IMG/VR virus record: IMGVR_UViG_3300005584_000033
Location: 1 to 25,743 of that record
Length of the DNA: 25,743 nt
Direction: 5' to 3' (one strand)
Source: a virus
Part shown: in pieces, positions 2,978 through 15,433 of the stretch
Layout of the letters: every line of letters begins with the position of its first letter
How positions within the stretch are numbered: the stretch's first letter is position 1
Position numbers and translations under genes: made by a program
Notes under the pieces: generated by a model
The model's database searches: none
The model's input: only the letters and a program-made list of their open reading frames with translations
What the model was told of the DNA's origin: nothing

Positions 2978-3529
2978 ATGAGCGTTTTCAGGGTGAAGCT
3001 GACAAATTCAAGGCAGGGACTCCTAGACATACACGACAACCAGAGGACGGCCTACATCACGGGTCCAAACCGGATCAACAGGAAGCTGAAGGACGGCGAG
3101 ACATTCATTGACTGCAACTACTGGAAGCGCTTTTCCTATCCAAACGTATCTATGGAGGAGGCGTTCATAGAGGTTGTTTTGGATGACGGCACAATATACA
3201 GCGATCAGATAGCCGAGAACACTTATCCGAGGGTATACAACATCGTGGCGGCTGCGGCATCCACATACGCCCAGAACAAGGCCGACATAGCAGGGGATTC
3301 AGGGTCATGGGCTCTCTTCGCCCAGATTACCAACAAAAGCAACGCCGACGACGTAAAGGTCAGAATAAACGGCCTAGACACTGCGATAATAGACGTACCT
3401 GCGGGGGCTACGCAGACCTTCAATCCCGGCGAGGTCACGATAGGAACCTTGGAAATAGACAACGGATCGGGGTCGGCTCCAGTGGAGGTGCAGATACTCG
3501 TTTCGGTCAGTTCCGTGGGCAGGAGCTGA
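2978..3529 (+). CDS. Hypothetical protein, possible virion structural protein
   Basis: This 183-residue protein starts at ATG 2978, 6-7 nt after an AGAGGA ribosome site. The N-terminal part is mixed. The C-terminal 70 residues (about 112-180) form alternating hydrophobic strands with Gly/Asn/Pro turns (for example VKVRINGLDTAIIDVPAGAT), suggesting a beta-sandwich or jelly-roll domain. The central Ala-rich stretch (about 89-95, IVAAAAS) could be a hinge. It opens the plus-strand cluster that contains the actin-like gene. A structural role is inferred only from this architecture. Confidence 0.6.
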   Translation: MSVFRVKLTNSRQGLLDIHDNQRTAYITGPNRINRKLKDGETFIDCNYWKRFSYPNVSMEEAFIEVVLDDGTIYSDQIAENTYPRVYNIVAAAASTYAQNKADIAGDSGSWALFAQITNKSNADDVKVRINGLDTAIIDVPAGATQTFNPGEVTIGTLEIDNGSGSAPVEVQILVSVSSVGRS

Positions 3530-3566: not shown

Positions 3567-3815
3567 ATGCCAAATCTAATCAAACCAGGGGAAGCCAGGG
3601 TAATTACCAAGAACGGCGAGGTTTTCGTCAACATATCCCTGGAGTTGACCGTGAAGCTGGACGGGTCGAATATAAGCGTTGCGGCTGTAGGAAAGAATTC
3701 GGAATCAGGGCTGTCGTCTGACGCCGTTTCGGACAGCAAGGTTGGATGGCAGATTCCCGATTTCACATCTAACAAGATAGACTTCGGAAAAATAAAAGGA
3801 GAAAAAATTGAATAG
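3567..3815 (+). CDS. Hypothetical protein, 82 residues
   Basis: The protein has 82 residues. Its N-terminal half is beta-rich (EARVITKNGEVFVNISLELTVKLDG, residues 9-33) and its C-terminal half is polar. It ends with KIDFGKIKGEKIE, whose codons contain the ribosome site of the next gene. Its last 8 nt overlap the start of the actin-like gene, so the two are probably translationally coupled. In plasmid segregation and phage actin systems a small partner gene often sits next to the filament gene, so a partner role is possible. Nothing in the residues proves it. Confidence 0.6.
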   Translation: MPNLIKPGEARVITKNGEVFVNISLELTVKLDGSNISVAAVGKNSESGLSSDAVSDSKVGWQIPDFTSNKIDFGKIKGEKIE

Positions 3816-4830
3816 TCGAGGATTCGATGCCGGCACCTATAATCTCGTATGTTGCAGCAGAAAAAATGACAATGAATTTGTCTACAAGAGGGAGGTCAAT
3901 GCCTTTCTTGAAATGCCGTTGGACAATCGCTTTGTATTTAACATGATGAGGAACGCGGGCGTCCCTCTGATAGAGAACAAGGAATCGAATGTGGGATACG
4001 CCCTTGGAGAGTCTGCCGTCAACATGGCCTACACAATGAATCAGATAGAACTCAAGCGTCCGATGAAGGACGGATGTCTGAATCCGAGGGAGAGGCATGC
4101 CCAGCAGATCATGAATGTGATGTGCCACAGCCTCATAGGCGAAATAGAAGAGGATGACACAACGCTTTACTACTCCGTTCCCGCCAACGCCATAAATAAA
4201 GAGACCGATGCCGATTACCACGACAAGGTTCTCGAGGCGATGTTCAAATCGTACAGAAGCGAAAAGGGATACAAGTTAAACCCGCACCCGATCAATGAGG
4301 CTCTTGCTCTTGTTTATGCGGAACTTCAGAATAAGAATTGGACCGGCGTCGGAATTTCTTTCGGAGCTGGAATGGTGAATCTCTGCTATGCGATGTACGG
4401 CGCTCCCATATTTCAGTTCTCCCTAGTGAACAGCGGCGACTGGATTGACAAGATGGCCTCAAAGGCAATAGGCGAGGAGACCACGACCTATGTGAACAAG
4501 GAAAAAATGCACGCCGATCTGACAGTTGAAAATCCCGACACTCTTGTACAAAGGGCGATAAAGGCCCAGTACGAGATAATGATCCAGCATACGGTTCAGG
4601 GGATCAAGAAGGGGATAGAGGAGGCGGGAAACAAGGCCAGGTCGGAACAGCCGATAGACATCGTGATCGCGGGAGGCACCAGCATTCCCAAGGGATTCGA
4701 TGTTCTGTTCCGCACCATACTTGATCAGTCCAAGATTACTACGATGAAGATAGGAGAGGTCATCAGGCCGCAGGACCCTCTCTATTCAGTGGCCAGAGGC
4801 TGCTTGATTGCTGCGGAAAACACGAAGTGA
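3808..4830 (+). CDS. Actin/Hsp70-superfamily ATPase (ParM/MreB-like)
   Basis: This 340-residue protein shows the actin-fold nucleotide-binding motifs in order. Phosphate 1 is GFDAGTYNLV (residues 5-14), a connecting segment is NEALALVYAE (163-172), phosphate 2 is GVGISFGAGMVNL (180-192), and an SGDWID turn lies at 209-214. The adenosine motif is DIVIAGGTSIPKGF (284-297), followed by DPLYSVARGCLIAA (323-336). The order and length fit bacterial and phage actin-like proteins such as ParM, MamK and Alp types, which form ATP-driven filaments for DNA segregation or positioning. The start is TTG at 3808, preceded by AAAGGAG at a good distance; no nearby ATG would retain phosphate 1. It overlaps the upstream 82-residue gene by 8 nt, and two small genes follow closely. 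Filament formation is inferred from the family. An ASKHA kinase-like enzyme is the main alternative. Confidence 0.82.
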   Translation: MNSRGFDAGTYNLVCCSRKNDNEFVYKREVNAFLEMPLDNRFVFNMMRNAGVPLIENKESNVGYALGESAVNMAYTMNQIELKRPMKDGCLNPRERHAQQIMNVMCHSLIGEIEEDDTTLYYSVPANAINKETDADYHDKVLEAMFKSYRSEKGYKLNPHPINEALALVYAELQNKNWTGVGISFGAGMVNLCYAMYGAPIFQFSLVNSGDWIDKMASKAIGEETTTYVNKEKMHADLTVENPDTLVQRAIKAQYEIMIQHTVQGIKKGIEEAGNKARSEQPIDIVIAGGTSIPKGFDVLFRTILDQSKITTMKIGEVIRPQDPLYSVARGCLIAAENTK

Positions 4831-4851
4831 AAAAGAAAGAAAGGAAGAAAA

Positions 4852-5067
4852 ATGAAAAAGACAGTAAGCGACCTAGGTTCTGGAGCCTACCTCCTCATGC
4901 ACGGACACAAGGTCGTGGGCAGGAAGGGTAGGGACTTCATATTCGAGGTAAATGATCAGGAGGAAGTGGAGTTCGAGCAGAGGAAGCTCGAGTATCTCTC
5001 GAGCGAATTCCACAGGTTCGACTCCTATATCATGTCCATGAAGAAGATCGGCGAATACAATCCATGA
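4852..5067 (+). CDS. Small hypothetical protein (DUF5659-like)
   Basis: This 71-residue protein starts 21 nt after the actin-like gene, with an AAAGGAAG ribosome site. The pattern resembles short phage proteins annotated DUF5659. It has an N-terminal helix ending in a Gly turn (SGAYLLMHGHKVVGRKG, residues 10-26), a strand FIFEV (29-33), and a C-terminal helix (about 41-66). The similarity is from memory and tentative. The stop overlaps the next start (ATGA), indicating coupling. The function is unknown. Confidence 0.55.
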   Translation: MKKTVSDLGSGAYLLMHGHKVVGRKGRDFIFEVNDQEEVEFEQRKLEYLSSEFHRFDSYIMSMKKIGEYNP

Positions 5068-5483
5068 AAATAGAAGGTCTTGAGTATTTCGTCGGAAAGA
5101 TATGCACCGTTTTCACCGTGCAGACGAACAGGGATTTCAAATCTGAAAACCCCCAGACCTTTCCACAGCCCGTATTTCACTACTTTGTGGGAAGGGTGAT
5201 GGAGGTGAATTCCAGGGGTGTATGTGTGGAGCAGTGGAACAATGAGAAGAAGCTGCGGACTTTCTTCTTCATGGATCACATCGTTTCCATATCCGAAGAG
5301 GAAATCCTAGATCCGTCTAATCCGAAGGACAAGCAGGTTATAGAGGACTACAAGAAGACGAATGAGTCTTCCTTGAAGAAGGCCAACGATAATGTGGAAA
5401 TGCTGAAGAAGCAGAGGGAGAGCCTGGCGGAGAATCCCTATCTAGACATAGAGGACTTGTCCTCTATGTCCAAGGCTCGCTAG
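5064..5483 (+). CDS. Hypothetical protein with beta core and coiled-coil tail
   Basis: The 139-residue protein begins with a beta-rich domain (residues 10-75; VGKICTVFTVQT, HYFVGRVMEVNSRGVCVEQW and TFFFMDHIVSISEEE), compatible with a small barrel of SH3 or LSm type. It ends with a charged helical tail (about 88-125) that could form a coiled coil. Its start overlaps the preceding gene by 4 nt (ATGA), making it the last gene of the actin-containing operon. Its TAG shares a CTAG palindrome at 5480-5483 with the stop of the convergent primase gene. No definite family was recognised. Confidence 0.6.
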   Translation: MKIEGLEYFVGKICTVFTVQTNRDFKSENPQTFPQPVFHYFVGRVMEVNSRGVCVEQWNNEKKLRTFFFMDHIVSISEEEILDPSNPKDKQVIEDYKKTNESSLKKANDNVEMLKKQRESLAENPYLDIEDLSSMSKAR

Positions 5484-6598: not shown

Positions 6599-7408
6599 AT
6601 GAAAATAGAACACATATCCGTATCAAGGGGCAAGTCCTACAAGCAGTGTCCCTACTACTACAAGCTCAAGTACCACGAGAAAATACCGAACCCCGGCGAG
6701 GAGCCGTTCTATTTCGTGTACGGCAAGATCATACACAAGATCGCGGAGTGCCATGTCCAGGAAAAGGGCAGGAGAAGCCTGAACGAAATAGCCAACGATG
6801 TGCTGAAGGGCAAGATAGAGATAGATGACGGGAAGAAGGCTCCTCCCCTGCCGAAGGACTACAAGAAAAGGATGCCGTCCCACATAAGAGCCATAGAAAA
6901 ACTGAACAAGTCCATAGGCTGCGACGGCGTAACGGAGCACAAGTTCAAGTACGATCTGCAGTCTCCCAACGGAAAGTTCGTCACGGGGTTCATAGACAGG
7001 ATAATAATAAGGGACGACAAGGCGTGGATAATAGACTACAAGACCACCAAGAAGGGGCCATTCAGGGAAAACAAGCATACGATCAAGTATGACCCGCAGC
7101 TCCGCATTTACTCCAGGGTGGTGCAGAAGGAATTCGGAATAGAGCCGGAGAACATAAAGGCGGGCCTTTACTACCTCGAGGACGAGGAGGCGATCTCATC
7201 CTCGTATGATGAGGAATCGCTGATCAGGGTCGAGCAAGAACTTCTGGCGGTTTACGACACCATCTTCTCGCACGAACCCGATCAGGTAGTCGGAACCACG
7301 GGACAGCACTGCCAGCGCTGCGAATACAGAGACATGTGCCCATTCTTCAAAAGTTCCAAGAGAAGGGTCGTCTGGGACGGGGATCTGAGCAAGATACCTA
7401 GAACATGA
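6599..7408 (+). CDS. RecB/Cas4-type PD-(D/E)XK nuclease with Fe-S cluster cysteines
   Basis: This 269-residue protein matches the PDDEXK_1 (RecB/Cas4/AddB-like) fold. It has an N-terminal QCPYYYKLKY (C17), a helix with H46 (YGKIIHKIAE), GFIDRI with D133, IIDYKTTK with D146 and K148, and a Q167-Tyr motif (DPQLRIYSR). The C-terminal cysteines C238, C241 and C247 (CQRCEYRDMCPFF) with C17 form the four-Cys pattern that holds a 4Fe-4S cluster in AddB and Cas4. It probably acts as an exonuclease in recombination, replication or host DNA breakdown. The ATG at 6599 has no clear SD, only AGGT close by. Its 3' end overlaps the convergent protease gene by 11 nt. Confidence 0.85.
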   Translation: MKIEHISVSRGKSYKQCPYYYKLKYHEKIPNPGEEPFYFVYGKIIHKIAECHVQEKGRRSLNEIANDVLKGKIEIDDGKKAPPLPKDYKKRMPSHIRAIEKLNKSIGCDGVTEHKFKYDLQSPNGKFVTGFIDRIIIRDDKAWIIDYKTTKKGPFRENKHTIKYDPQLRIYSRVVQKEFGIEPENIKAGLYYLEDEEAISSSYDEESLIRVEQELLAVYDTIFSHEPDQVVGTTGQHCQRCEYRDMCPFFKSSKRRVVWDGDLSKIPRT

Positions 7409-8252
7409 TGGGCATGGGTATGAAGTTCCCTTCGTACTTTCTGTCCGGTTTGTCCCAGTCCTTTATTGGCACGATCTCCATGGCATTTCTGTTGCCTATG
7501 AGCCACATGTGGTTGTTTTTTGAAAACACCTTCTCCATGGAGCTCACGGGTGTGAAATAGCCTATTCCCTTGCCGGATATGTCCGAAGTGCCCCAGCATA
7601 TGCCCACAAGTTCTCCCTCTTTCGTCACAAGTCCTCCGCCGGATCTTCCGGGACGAGGGCTGTTCAGTTCGGTAATGATGTCAAGAGACCTTTTCTCGAC
7701 AAACCTGACCTCATACCTTGCAACCTCCCTGCCTCCGTCGCACCCCATGGAATTCAGCAAATCGCCCTTCTTCAATTTGAGTTTGGGCGATATCGGAAAG
7801 CATTCCGGAATCCAGTCGCACTTGAATCTGACAAGGCTGCAGTCGTAGCCTCTGTCGTTGCTCCAGAATAGAACCTCCGCATCGTATGCTCTGGCTTCGG
7901 GCAGTTTCGTGCCGTTTTCATACCAGACCGTCACCCTTGCCCCCACCTTAGGTTCGGAGCCGTATCCCTTGTTGCCCTCCCAAAGGTGTCCGCACGATAT
8001 TACGTAAGCCCATTCTGACGATGGATCATAATAGATTATCGTTCCGGAGCCGGCCGATCCGTTCACTGACAACTTGACGGAAGCGGAGAGGAACTTGGAG
8101 TATTTTTCGTCCCTCTGCTCCTTCGGAACCGGAAAATCAACCATCGCCGCATCCTCTCTCAGGATGGGATGGATGGGTTCCGCCGACGCGAAACAGTTGC
8201 AAAAACTTATAGATAAAGCTAGAATCAGAGCGGCACGTGAAATCCTTTTCAT
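7398..8252 (-). CDS. Exported trypsin-like serine protease
   Basis: This 284-residue protein starts with a clear signal peptide: MKRISR, a hydrophobic core (residues 8-18), and a likely signal peptidase cut after ASA (24). It then shows a chymotrypsin-fold triad: His89 in ISCGHLW, Asp137 in DRGYDCSLVRF and Ser204 in RPGRSGGGLV. Two Cys in the signal region do not form an obvious lipobox. The protein should be secreted or periplasmic, which is unusual for a virion prohead protease and suggests action on the host envelope or outside the cell. AAGGAGG lies 8 nt before the ATG at 8252, under an AT-rich box at 8274-8283. A captured host HtrA/trypsin-like gene is a possible origin, though no PDZ domain is present. 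Confidence 0.82.
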   Translation of the reverse strand: MKRISRAALILALSISFCNCFASAEPIHPILREDAAMVDFPVPKEQRDEKYSKFLSASVKLSVNGSAGSGTIIYYDPSSEWAYVISCGHLWEGNKGYGSEPKVGARVTVWYENGTKLPEARAYDAEVLFWSNDRGYDCSLVRFKCDWIPECFPISPKLKLKKGDLLNSMGCDGGREVARYEVRFVEKRSLDIITELNSPRPGRSGGGLVTKEGELVGICWGTSDISGKGIGYFTPVSSMEKVFSKNNHMWLIGNRNAMEIVPIKDWDKPDRKYEGNFIPMPIMF

Positions 8253-11081: not shown

Positions 11082-11522
11082 TTAGTCGTCATCTTCTTCA
11101 TCTTCATCTTCATCATCCCAGTCGTCATCATCTTCGTCATCGTCATCGTCATCGCCATCGCCATCGTCATCGTCATCGTCATCCCAGTCATCGTCATCAT
11201 CTTCTTCATCTTCATCTTCATCTTCATCGTCGTCGTCGTCGTCCCAGTCATCCTCATCATCCTCATCATCCGACAAATTATCATCAACAATCTCATCATC
11301 TTCCGAGTCATCGGAGTTCTCGTTTTGTCGGTCACCTCCTTCTTCCAAGTCCTCGTAATCATGGGAATCAGAATCATCGGAGGCCTTCTCCCACTTCCAC
11401 TCGGTCAACACACCCTCTTTATTGGATTCGTCTTTTTTTGCCGGCGCATAAGAAAAATCACTATACCAGTCATTGGTGTAGATGTAGTCAATTTGATTTT
11501 CAACATCCTCATGTGAACTCAT
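11082..11522 (-). CDS. Hyperacidic poly-Asp/Glu protein
   Basis: This 146-residue protein has a mixed N-terminus (residues 1-60, including KEGVLTEWKWEKAS) followed by about 85 residues that are almost only Asp and Glu, with Trp residues recurring every 20-22 positions near the end. The codons are runs of GAT/GAC/GAA, which make a trinucleotide-type repeat. AAAGGAG lies 10 nt before the ATG at 11522, and AT-rich boxes lie further up (near 11555 and 11590). Such extreme acidity could mimic DNA, buffer cations or act as a chaperone for basic proteins. None of these can be chosen from sequence. Confidence 0.65.
   Translation of the reverse strand: MSSHEDVENQIDYIYTNDWYSDFSYAPAKKDESNKEGVLTEWKWEKASDDSDSHDYEDLEEGGDRQNENSDDSEDDEIVDDNLSDDEDDEDDWDDDDDDEDEDEDEEDDDDDWDDDDDDDGDGDDDDDDEDDDDWDDEDEDEEDDD
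11085..11280. repeat. Trinucleotide-type low-complexity tract (TCA/TCG, GAT/GAC on minus)
   Basis: The tract consists almost entirely of TCATCG/TCTTCA-type triplets, interrupted by four near-identical CCCAGTCATC-type patches that encode the spaced Asp-Trp-Asp motifs. It lies in the 3' half of the acidic gene and is a likely site of slippage or unequal recombination. Confidence 0.85.
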
Positions 11523-11614: not shown

Positions 11615-13015
11615 TCAAGAGATTTTCTGCCTCACAAGATGGCCGTTTTTCACGAACCAATCCCCATTTTTACCTATTGACTTTGCTATGCTGCTGAGAC
11701 AAATCGCCGCGGAGGACTTGATTTCCTCGTCGGAAGGCTTTATTTCAAATAAAAGCCTTCCTGTTTTATCAAACTCGTAGTAGGAGTCCGAGGGGACTTC
11801 TATTTCAAAATCATCCTTGAAGGAAAGACTTGAAACCATCGGAAGTTCGCTCGCTTTGAGGGTCGCCTCGTTTCTTATGACGACCGATGTGACCTTGCTG
11901 TTCTTGACCACTATGTCGTTCTTTTTGAGTTGGGAGACCATATCGTTCCACGAAGGGCCGGAAAGAGTTCTGACCTCGCTTTCGTTAAGAATTCTCCATT
12001 CGACAAATACCTGCTTCATGATCCTTGCGTATTCCGGGTTCTTGGACTGCGCCACGACGATCATGGATTTGGCCATAGAAGCGTAGTAGTTGACAACCCT
12101 TGCGCTTCCGGGAATGGCTTGTGCGAGAATTGAAAACGAAAAGTCCCTCGCGGTTCTGATCGCGGAAATCGGGTTGTTTCCGATAGAGACGTGGTATTTG
12201 AATATTCTTACAAAAATCTGGTACCATGCGCTTGAAAACACGCGGCCAAAGCTGTGGCACTCGGCGGCAAGTTTGTTGTTTGAAGTTTCCGCGGGCAGCG
12301 TGGACGGCTCCTCGTACTTGAAGACCTCCACCGCGGGGTCCCTGAGGGCATTTGGCAGGTGTAGCGGATCTCTTGTGACATTTCTTATCAGGATTCCGAC
12401 TTCCTCGGCAAGCCTTGATACGGAATTGGAAACCGAAAGATCGCCCTTGGTTTCAACGATCATCTTGTTCAGTGCGACATCGTAGCTCATCAAATTGAAC
12501 ATGGCGACTATATCGGAAAAGGCCTCGTGGAAAGACCACACCTCCAGGGCTTGGACGCTCCAGAAGTCGGGACGCATGGCGTCCAGCATCGCATGACCCA
12601 GTTCATGGGTGACAATGTCGGAGGAATCCGCGAAATACACGTTCTTTCCCTTGAAATTGTAGTAGTAGAACTTGAGAGATTTTCTGTCGTAAAATGCGTT
12701 AAGGTCAGTGCCCGCGGCGGGATGCACCACGAGCAGCGAGGTGGCAGACCAGTTTTTTATGGGAGTCTTTAAGTGCCTCTGGACGTTTTCTATGCAGTTT
12801 CCGATAGAAATGTGGCAGTTGACGGCTCTCTTCTCATTTGTGCTGAAAGGAGTGGGGTTCATTTCCTTCACCGCGTACTTCAGAAATCCGACCTTGGGCA
12901 TTTCGGCATCTATGACCAGATCGGGGGTGCTAGGGTCGTTTACGGTGTACCTGCTGAGCAGGTGAGCCAGACTAGACTGAATTTGAGTTATCTTACGGCC
13001 GAAAATATTGAACAT
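11615..13015 (-). CDS. Gluzincin (thermolysin-like) zinc metallopeptidase
   Basis: The frame is open from 13027, but the second ATG at 13015 has GGAGG exactly 5 nt upstream and is the likely start (466 residues). The zinc site is DIVTHELGHAMLDAM (HExxH at residues 137-141) followed 22 residues later by FHEAFSDIVAMF (Glu164, Asp168), the arrangement of M4/M36-type gluzincins. No signal peptide is obvious, so it may act in the cytoplasm or in the virion. The C-terminal 150 residues are of unknown fold. It is transcribed from a shared AT box at 13042-13050. About 92 bp separate it from the acidic gene downstream. That gap holds AT-rich boxes and an 8-bp hairpin (11609-11628) without a T-run. Confidence 0.82.
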   Translation of the reverse strand: MFNIFGRKITQIQSSLAHLLSRYTVNDPSTPDLVIDAEMPKVGFLKYAVKEMNPTPFSTNEKRAVNCHISIGNCIENVQRHLKTPIKNWSATSLLVVHPAAGTDLNAFYDRKSLKFYYYNFKGKNVYFADSSDIVTHELGHAMLDAMRPDFWSVQALEVWSFHEAFSDIVAMFNLMSYDVALNKMIVETKGDLSVSNSVSRLAEEVGILIRNVTRDPLHLPNALRDPAVEVFKYEEPSTLPAETSNNKLAAECHSFGRVFSSAWYQIFVRIFKYHVSIGNNPISAIRTARDFSFSILAQAIPGSARVVNYYASMAKSMIVVAQSKNPEYARIMKQVFVEWRILNESEVRTLSGPSWNDMVSQLKKNDIVVKNSKVTSVVIRNEATLKASELPMVSSLSFKDDFEIEVPSDSYYEFDKTGRLLFEIKPSDEEIKSSAAICLSSIAKSIGKNGDWFVKNGHLVRQKIS

Positions 13016-13041
13016 ATAAACCTCCATGTTTCTGTTCTAGA

Positions 13042-13058: not shown

Positions 13059-13538
13059 ATGGAAGAAAGGTCGCTGATCGGAAAAAAGGAAATAGAGGAA
13101 TACAAGAACTTCGCCTTCCGGGACGACATGCTGAAGCTTGCCGTTGGCGTGGTGCTCGGGAACTCGTTCAACAAGGTCGTATACGGGATATCGGACTATC
13201 TTGTTATGCCCGTTCTGACATTTCTCGTGTCCAAGACCGGCGATGAATGGAGAAGGTGGGAGTTCAGCCCCTTTTTGGGACTCAAATTTGAATTCGGAAG
13301 AATGATCGGCACTTTCGTTGATTTTCTTCTAATGTCATTCTTCCTCTATCTATTCTATGTTAAATTGGCGAGCCGGCTGGTTCGTCCCGAAGTATCCAAG
13401 AAGAAGGAGTGTCCCTTCTGCCATGAGAGCATACGGCTAGAAGCCGCAAGATGTCCCTTTTGCACCGGAGATTTAAGTGTCAAAACAAGAAGACCTAGAG
13501 GAAAGAATAAGAGAGCAGAGAACCGTAGAGGCCAATAG
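13059..13538 (+). CDS. MscL-like mechanosensitive channel with C-terminal zinc ribbon
   Basis: This 159-residue protein begins like MscL: a polar N-terminal helix, then YKNFAFRDDMLKLAVGVVLG (15-34), whose LAVGVVLGNSFNKVV stretch matches the first membrane helix and pore. MPVL (50-53) follows, a short loop to about 78, and a second membrane helix GRMIGTFVDFLLMSFFLYLF (80-99). After the second helix a CxxC-x10-CxxC zinc ribbon follows (C118, C121, C132, C135; CPFCHES and CPFCTGDL), then a basic tail. MscL releases solutes when membrane tension rises. A phage copy could relieve osmotic stress or assist lysis. The zinc ribbon is an addition not usual in MscL. No SD is visible. The 3' end overlaps the next gene by 62 nt. 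Confidence 0.8.
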   Translation: MEERSLIGKKEIEEYKNFAFRDDMLKLAVGVVLGNSFNKVVYGISDYLVMPVLTFLVSKTGDEWRRWEFSPFLGLKFEFGRMIGTFVDFLLMSFFLYLFYVKLASRLVRPEVSKKKECPFCHESIRLEAARCPFCTGDLSVKTRRPRGKNKRAENRRGQ

Positions 13539-14939: not shown

Positions 14940-14967
14940 ATTATATAATTCTTTCTCTACTTGTCAA
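14940..14967 (-). promoter_or_regulatory. Consensus sigma70 promoter
   Basis: On the minus strand TTGACA (14967-14962), a 16-nt spacer, and TATAAT (14945-14940) match both consensus hexamers exactly. The -35 overlaps the last codons of the ferritin-like gene. The start point would be about 30 nt upstream of the ATG at 14901. Confidence 0.85.
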
Positions 14968-15433
14968 TAGCATTTTCTAGCATTTCCCGGATGTTGTCGG
15001 CGTCGCCCCTGCTGTCAAGAATCTGATCCTCGAGAAACAAGGCCAAGTATGTGCCGTCAACTGTATCTTCGGGTCCGCTGGCGGCGAGGGTTTCGGCTTG
15101 CGAGTGCCTTGTTACGTAGTTCTGGACTACCCTGTCCTCCATTTCCATGGCGGCCTGAAGCAGTTCCCTCGGGCACGTCAGGCCCTCCTTGAATTCGGCG
15201 ACCGTGCTGGGAATCTTCCTGTCAAGGTTTCTTCTCGTGATTATTCCCTGGATGAGCCTTCTGAACTCCTCCACGTGCTTCATTTCGCTGGAGGCCTGCT
15301 CGGAGAAGAATTCGCCGATCTCTTGTCTGTGGAGTCCTTTGATGCTGGTGGCCGCCTGCATGTAGAAGTGCATATGGGAATATTCATTTGCAAGATCGCC
15401 CATCAAGATATCAACCATATTTTCTATGTTCAT
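14957..15433 (-). CDS. Ferritin-like diiron protein
   Basis: This 158-residue four-helix protein has ferritin-type metal ligands: Glu17 in ANEYSHMHFYMQ, Glu50-x2-His53 in SSEMKHVEEF, Glu97 in AAMEMEDRVV, and ALFLEDQILD (131-140) in the last helix. Ferritins oxidise and store iron as a 24-mer shell. The length fits bacterial ferritin, somewhat shorter than FtnA. A phage copy could protect from iron-driven oxidative damage or supply iron. The start ATG at 15433 has AAAGGA upstream and overlaps the end of the previous minus gene. The metal site is judged by eye. A rubrerythrin-like relative is the alternative. Confidence 0.75.
   Translation of the reverse strand: MNIENMVDILMGDLANEYSHMHFYMQAATSIKGLHRQEIGEFFSEQASSEMKHVEEFRRLIQGIITRRNLDRKIPSTVAEFKEGLTCPRELLQAAMEMEDRVVQNYVTRHSQAETLAASGPEDTVDGTYLALFLEDQILDSRGDADNIREMLENAIDK

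Follow-up and report, generated by a model that had tools for sequence, protein, structure and literature searches.

To our knowledge, only few phage cytoskeletons have been described, and the well-studied one, found in giant phages, is a tubulin. Among the actins, volactin (HVO_2015) of Haloferax volcanii assembles into dynamic filaments in vivo and influences cell shape (PMC10869688). Salactin, a haloarchaeal actin of Halobacterium, has been linked to DNA partitioning (PMC10746226). A phage actin, AlpC, is encoded by the Corynebacterium prophage CGP3 together with a co-transcribed small gene upstream, the product of which (AlpA) binds the alpS DNA repeats (PMC4446434).

The locus studied here lies in the IMG/VR virus record IMGVR_UViG_3300005584_000033, of which positions 1 to 25,743 were analysed and are referred to as the window. 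A preliminary description had reported a phage-encoded actin-like ATPase within four coupled open reading frames. All four were found where reported, including the TTG start of the second and the ATGA overlap between the third and the fourth (Table 1), and they belong to a tailed phage that encodes a primase and a terminase.

Table 1 Position and basis of the features of the actin locus in the window
Feature	Position	Strand	Basis
183-aa gene (up183), function unassigned	2978..3529	+	Found in most relatives
82-aa partner candidate (up82)	3567..3815	+	Synteny, C-terminal motif
Actin-like ATPase, volactin family (PF25216), 340 aa, TTG start	3808..4830	+	Pfam, AlphaFold, Foldseek
71-aa partner candidate (dn71)	4852..5067	+	Synteny, conservation
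139-aa gene, ATGA overlap with the 71-aa gene	5064..5483	+	Translationally coupled in the window

The TTG start codon of the actin gene is preceded by AGGAG about 7 nt upstream, and the gene overlaps the preceding one by 8 nt. Since most relatives have ATG at this site, or at most two codons away, after a similar Shine-Dalgarno sequence, TTG is a plausible start codon and a peculiarity of the window copy. The five actin signatures follow each other in the order noted before: phosphate-1 (D7-x-G9-T10-x-N12), connect-1 (including E164), phosphate-2 (S184-x-G186-x-G188), adenosine (G289-G290-T-S...G296-F297) and connect-2 (L325...A336). Residues D7, G9, T10, E164, S184, G186, G188, G289, G290 and G296 are invariant in an alignment of 48 viral and archaeal homologues. 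Ser184 replaces the usual first Asp of phosphate-2, a substitution common to the whole volactin family.

The protein matches the Pfam family Volactin (PF25216) with an E-value of 4.3e-64 and 217.5 bits, compared to a cut-off value of 35. The match spans profile positions 3–321 of 321 and residues 4–336 of 340. Values for other actin families are below the respective thresholds: 24.5 bits for MreB_Mbl in Pfam (cut-off 27), 20.8 of 293 bits for the MreB model NF010539 and 38.4 bits for the MamK model NF040964 (cut-off 400). In NCBIfam, the protein matched MamK, MreB and BeeR only weakly, far under the cut-offs; the salactin model NF053533 yielded none at E 0.1, and no PHROGs family matched the protein. 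A search of the PDB with the volactin-family profile returned MamK (E 3e-9) and MreB (7e-6). On these profile matches, the protein is assigned to the volactin family and not to MreB, MamK, salactin or the sugar kinases. From their single copy number, volactin and salactin had first been suspected to be one family, which was rejected: NCBIfam separates them, a Haloferax PF25216 protein reaching 14 bits on NF053533 at a cut-off of 400. Because the two families are separate, the role of salactin in DNA partitioning is not transferable to the phage protein.

An AlphaFold (AF2) monomer model of the protein reached a pLDDT of 90.7 and a pTM of 0.89. Foldseek ranked MreB, MamK, BeeR and eukaryotic actins at the top, with the filament structures of MamK and BeeR among the nearest; no close viral structure was found in BFVD. 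MamK and MreB are hence the nearest solved structures by both profile and fold, yet stay under their family cut-offs. The structure prediction suggested in the preliminary description thus yielded an actin fold. An ASKHA nucleotide fold would also fit a non-polymerising enzyme of the sugar kinase or Ppx-like kind. However, actins rank first and kinases are missing among the top matches in Pfam, NCBIfam, the PDB profile search and Foldseek (top 50), and such an enzyme is highly improbable. We conclude that the open reading frame encodes a real actin-fold ATPase, the ATP-site conservation, fold and family of which are established by computation.

Like volactin, the phage actin belongs to PF25216 over its full length and carries the same Ser in phosphate-2, with 31–38% identity to archaeal members. 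It differs in its lower score (217 bits versus about 450 bits for haloarchaeal proteins), in its placement in a viral clade of its own (100% support, apart from archaeal members) and in having two fixed small neighbour genes, which were not seen in any of the searched loci of archaea and bacteria. In the trees, the phage group of the window, a second phage group and a bacterial chromosomal group each formed one clade with full support, and the latter two were joined (100/99 support). A single viral clade for both volactin lineages was not rejected (AU p-value of 0.07), but a single viral origin of the two is disfavoured. One cytoskeletal family is thereby common to archaea, bacteria and phages.

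Of 299 genomes from one bacterial phylum, about 15 have chromosomal genes of the volactin family, beside FimV-like and housekeeping genes (loci L190–L204, in genomes G057, G064, G068, G092, G096, G120, G124, G128 and others). Genome G128 also has a MamK-like gene, and the bacteria with chromosomal volactins may be magnetotactic.

Close viral relatives with 59–88% identity were found in IMG/VR, 103 with one query, on contigs of up to 532 kb; a broader alignment query retrieved 392 relatives. Of the 50,697 phage records searched, two carry a volactin, both from uncultured huge phages. The volactin of LR756511 (595 kb) shares 61% identity with the window protein, that of LR745208 (485 kb) 30%. 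In the open-licence literature on phage actins, volactin, salactin, huge or jumbo phages and cytoskeletons, no account of a phage volactin was found. The main text of a huge-phage survey mentions PhuZ and not actin, and actin is likewise not named in a jumbo-phage review of 2026.

For a core-gene test that avoids selection on the actin, loci were collected by their PD-(D/E)XK nuclease gene. Of the 59 loci that extend 9.5 kb or more upstream, 56 carry the actin, as do all nine loci with 5–9.5 kb upstream. One of the three exceptions among the 59 has the actin further along the contig, and two are without it. Since 57 of the 59 independently anchored contigs with enough DNA have the actin, it belongs to the core genes and is seldom lost. 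Compared to two near relatives, dN/dS is about 0.03–0.04, with dS saturated. Identities to the four nearest relatives are 88, 86, 86 and 81% for the actin and 68, 68, 64 and 59% for the primase, so the actin is, judged by these identities, far more conserved than the primase. In an undescribed group of giant viruses of bacteria, missing from isolate records, an actin of a family described from archaea is thus a near-universal, core and strongly constrained gene.

The four genes had been described as one coupled cassette with the flanking genes as candidate partners of the actin, which holds for three of them. A homologue of up82 lies immediately 5′ of the actin in 76 of the 80 loci; 600 or more upstream bases are available in 76 loci. 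In 77 of the 80, a homologue of dn71 follows the actin within 1.5 kb, with a median gap of 38 nt. The 139-aa gene is not a fixed neighbour: it lies within 1.5 kb of the actin in only 15 of the 56 loci having the gene and is usually more distant and on the opposite strand. The fixed cassette is therefore up82-actin-dn71, without the 139-aa gene. Further upstream, up183 was found in 76 of 80 loci (at most 1.5 kb away in 63), mostly two or three genes before the actin, and has no match in Pfam, PHROGs or NCBIfam.

Copies of up82 consist of a conserved N-terminal beta-hairpin region, a variable linker and a conserved C-terminal W-x-I-P-D-F...K-I-x-F-G-K. The pattern [WF]x[IVM]P is present within the last 30 residues in 66 of 80 copies, which were chosen by their FGK ending, versus 3.7% of control ORFs. 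No family match was found for up82, and AF2 of the protein alone predicted it to be mostly disordered (pLDDT 55), which fits, but does not establish, a peptide-type adaptor. The small conserved domain of dn71 occurs singly or in tandem in relatives; the identity of dn71 to the four nearest relatives is 93, 91, 88 and 80%.

That the hosts of the actin-bearing phages are bacteria is well supported because three large actin contigs, LR756511 included, encode bacterial ribosomal protein S21. The terminase is of the T4 type, with phages of Flavobacterium and cyanobacteria as its nearest relatives in culture. The window contains a sigma-70 promoter (TTGACA-16-TATAAT, 12/12 perfect) at 14967-14940 on the minus strand, 39 nt before the open reading frame 14901-14620, although promoter-like sites overall show no excess over shuffles. 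An archaeal host was rejected on the basis of S21, the perfect promoter and the T4-type terminase.

We favour, with moderate confidence, the reading that the cassette provides the phage with its own actin cytoskeleton. The volactin-family protein would bind ATP in the actin cleft, as the conserved motifs and the predicted fold suggest, and would assemble dynamic filaments inside the infected bacterium; by analogy with volactin, polymerisation is likely. The Ser that replaces Asp in phosphate-2 counts against this reading. The product of up82, made just before the actin, would act as tether or regulator, its C-terminal WxIPDF...KIxFGK binding the filament and its N-terminal part binding cargo or itself; we regard the chances of an adaptor role as about even. 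Based on its synteny and equal conservation, dn71 may be a second co-factor. The filaments would position or move replicating DNA or new capsids, a job similar to that of PhuZ, and chances are again about even that they position one of these two.

The preliminary description had proposed a DNA-positioning or replication-centre system. A late, virion-related role is nearly as likely, because the order up183-up82-actin-dn71-terminase is kept in LR756511, where about 11.6 kb separate actin and terminase, close to the 11.1 kb in the window. This arrangement, together with the genes with a sheath-like N-terminus that flank the actin of the second phage group, would fit a late scaffold for capsid transport, packaging or tail assembly instead of a DNA-positioning device. 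On the other hand, primase and nuclease genes also adjoin the actin cassette in the window and up183 is without a structural match, and we consider a dedicated morphogenesis actin possible but doubtful. Centromere-like repeats and DNA-binding domains, which would support DNA as the cargo, were not found in the window and the neighbours.

The same observation bears on a plasmid-like segregation system of the ParMRC or AlpACS type, in which a DNA-binding adaptor and a centromere would partition the phage genomes. The small gene upstream of the actin resembles alpA-alpC of prophage CGP3 (PMC4446434), a likeness by gene layout and not by direct comparison with AlpC, and a large low-copy genome would suit such a system. 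The protein family differs from ParM and AlpC, however, and neither an RHH nor an HTH domain was recognised in the neighbours with Pfam and NCBIfam. No alpS-like repeats and no other iteron or repeat array were found near the operon in the window or in three relatives, and the gaps around the genes, at only 37 and 21 nt, are too short for a centromere array. A ParM/Alp affiliation is thus not supported: the protein belongs to the volactin family and no ParR-like gene was seen nearby. Given the missing repeats, the lack of space for them and the absence of a recognised DNA-binding neighbour, we regard a segregation system of this type as improbable. It is also quite improbable that the phage actin takes over the host as a poison or decoy that disturbs MreB or cell shape. 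Volactin influences the shape of Haloferax cells (PMC10869688) and the predicted fold is close to MreB, but MreB is far in sequence, with MreB_Mbl under its cut-off, and a poison would have no need of an ATP site kept intact by strong purifying selection, nor of two fixed neighbours.

The favoured reading, an actin cytoskeleton of the phage's own, invites comparison with PhuZ of phiKZ-like jumbo phages, likewise a cytoskeletal filament protein of giant phages and possibly one with the same job. PhuZ differs in being a tubulin GTPase. PhuZ (phrog_4733) and chimallin (phrog_4795), by which membership in the Chimalliviridae was tested, were both found in phiKZ as positive control and in none of 23 actin-bearing large contigs of both phage groups; these contigs are possibly incomplete, and distant versions could escape the models used. 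The tubulin family had no match in 15 such contigs, also possibly incomplete. Since the completeness of the contigs is not established, this absence falls short of proof, and the window, at 25.7 kb, is only a fragment. We suggest only tentatively that a huge-phage lineage runs its infection on an archaeal-type actin spindle that replaces PhuZ, with a novel type of adaptor gripping the filament by a short C-terminal Ile-Pro motif, and that two groups came to do so separately. Whether giant phages that lack PhuZ use actin to organise the cell can be tested directly in this system, for which up82 is a ready adaptor candidate.

The second phage group was retrieved with LR745208 as query and comprises 236 viral relatives on contigs of up to 497 kb. 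The best 80 of these share 58–81% identity with LR745208, beyond two copies of LR745208 itself. None of the tested neighbour genes of the window is present in this group. The actin is preceded by a different protein with a conserved FIP motif at its end ([FY]IP); the tail of this upstream neighbour has [FYW][IVLM]P in 66 of 80 loci versus 7.4% of 2,093 control ORFs. The Ile-Pro tails of these non-homologous neighbours may have converged on one actin-binding peptide, which we regard as a lead and not as a result. Large repeated genes flank the actin (loci L205–L284); their N-terminus is tail-sheath-like, an identity that obtained no confirmation from Pfam or PHROGs. A 297-kb contig of this group (IMGVR_UViG_3300025141_000016; L264, L276) carries two different volactin genes.

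In six distinct phages, in-frame inteins are inserted in the phosphate-2 loop of the actin, between Ser184 and GAGM. Mobile inteins commonly insert at active sites. The insert comprises about 370 residues, as read in three phages, and Hint and LAGLIDADG domains were confirmed in one. The actin of the window is without an intein, while one of the phages with the insert shares about 93% identity with the window; presence of the element thus varies even between phages this similar. The intein loci are L303 (6093-8222), L302 (1930-4053), L086 (5369-7486), L329, L330, L351, L365 and L369.

Several other genes of the window were noted. A homologue of the mechanosensitive channel MscL (13059-13538, plus strand; 64 bits in Pfam) has a zinc-ribbon-like C-terminal end. 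On the minus strand, a ferritin-like protein is encoded at 14957-15433, and two protease genes at 11615-13027 and 7398-8252 represent a thermolysin-like M4 and a trypsin-like type, the latter with an apparent signal sequence. The C-terminal half of a 146-aa protein (11082-11522, minus strand) is extremely acidic and rich in Asp.
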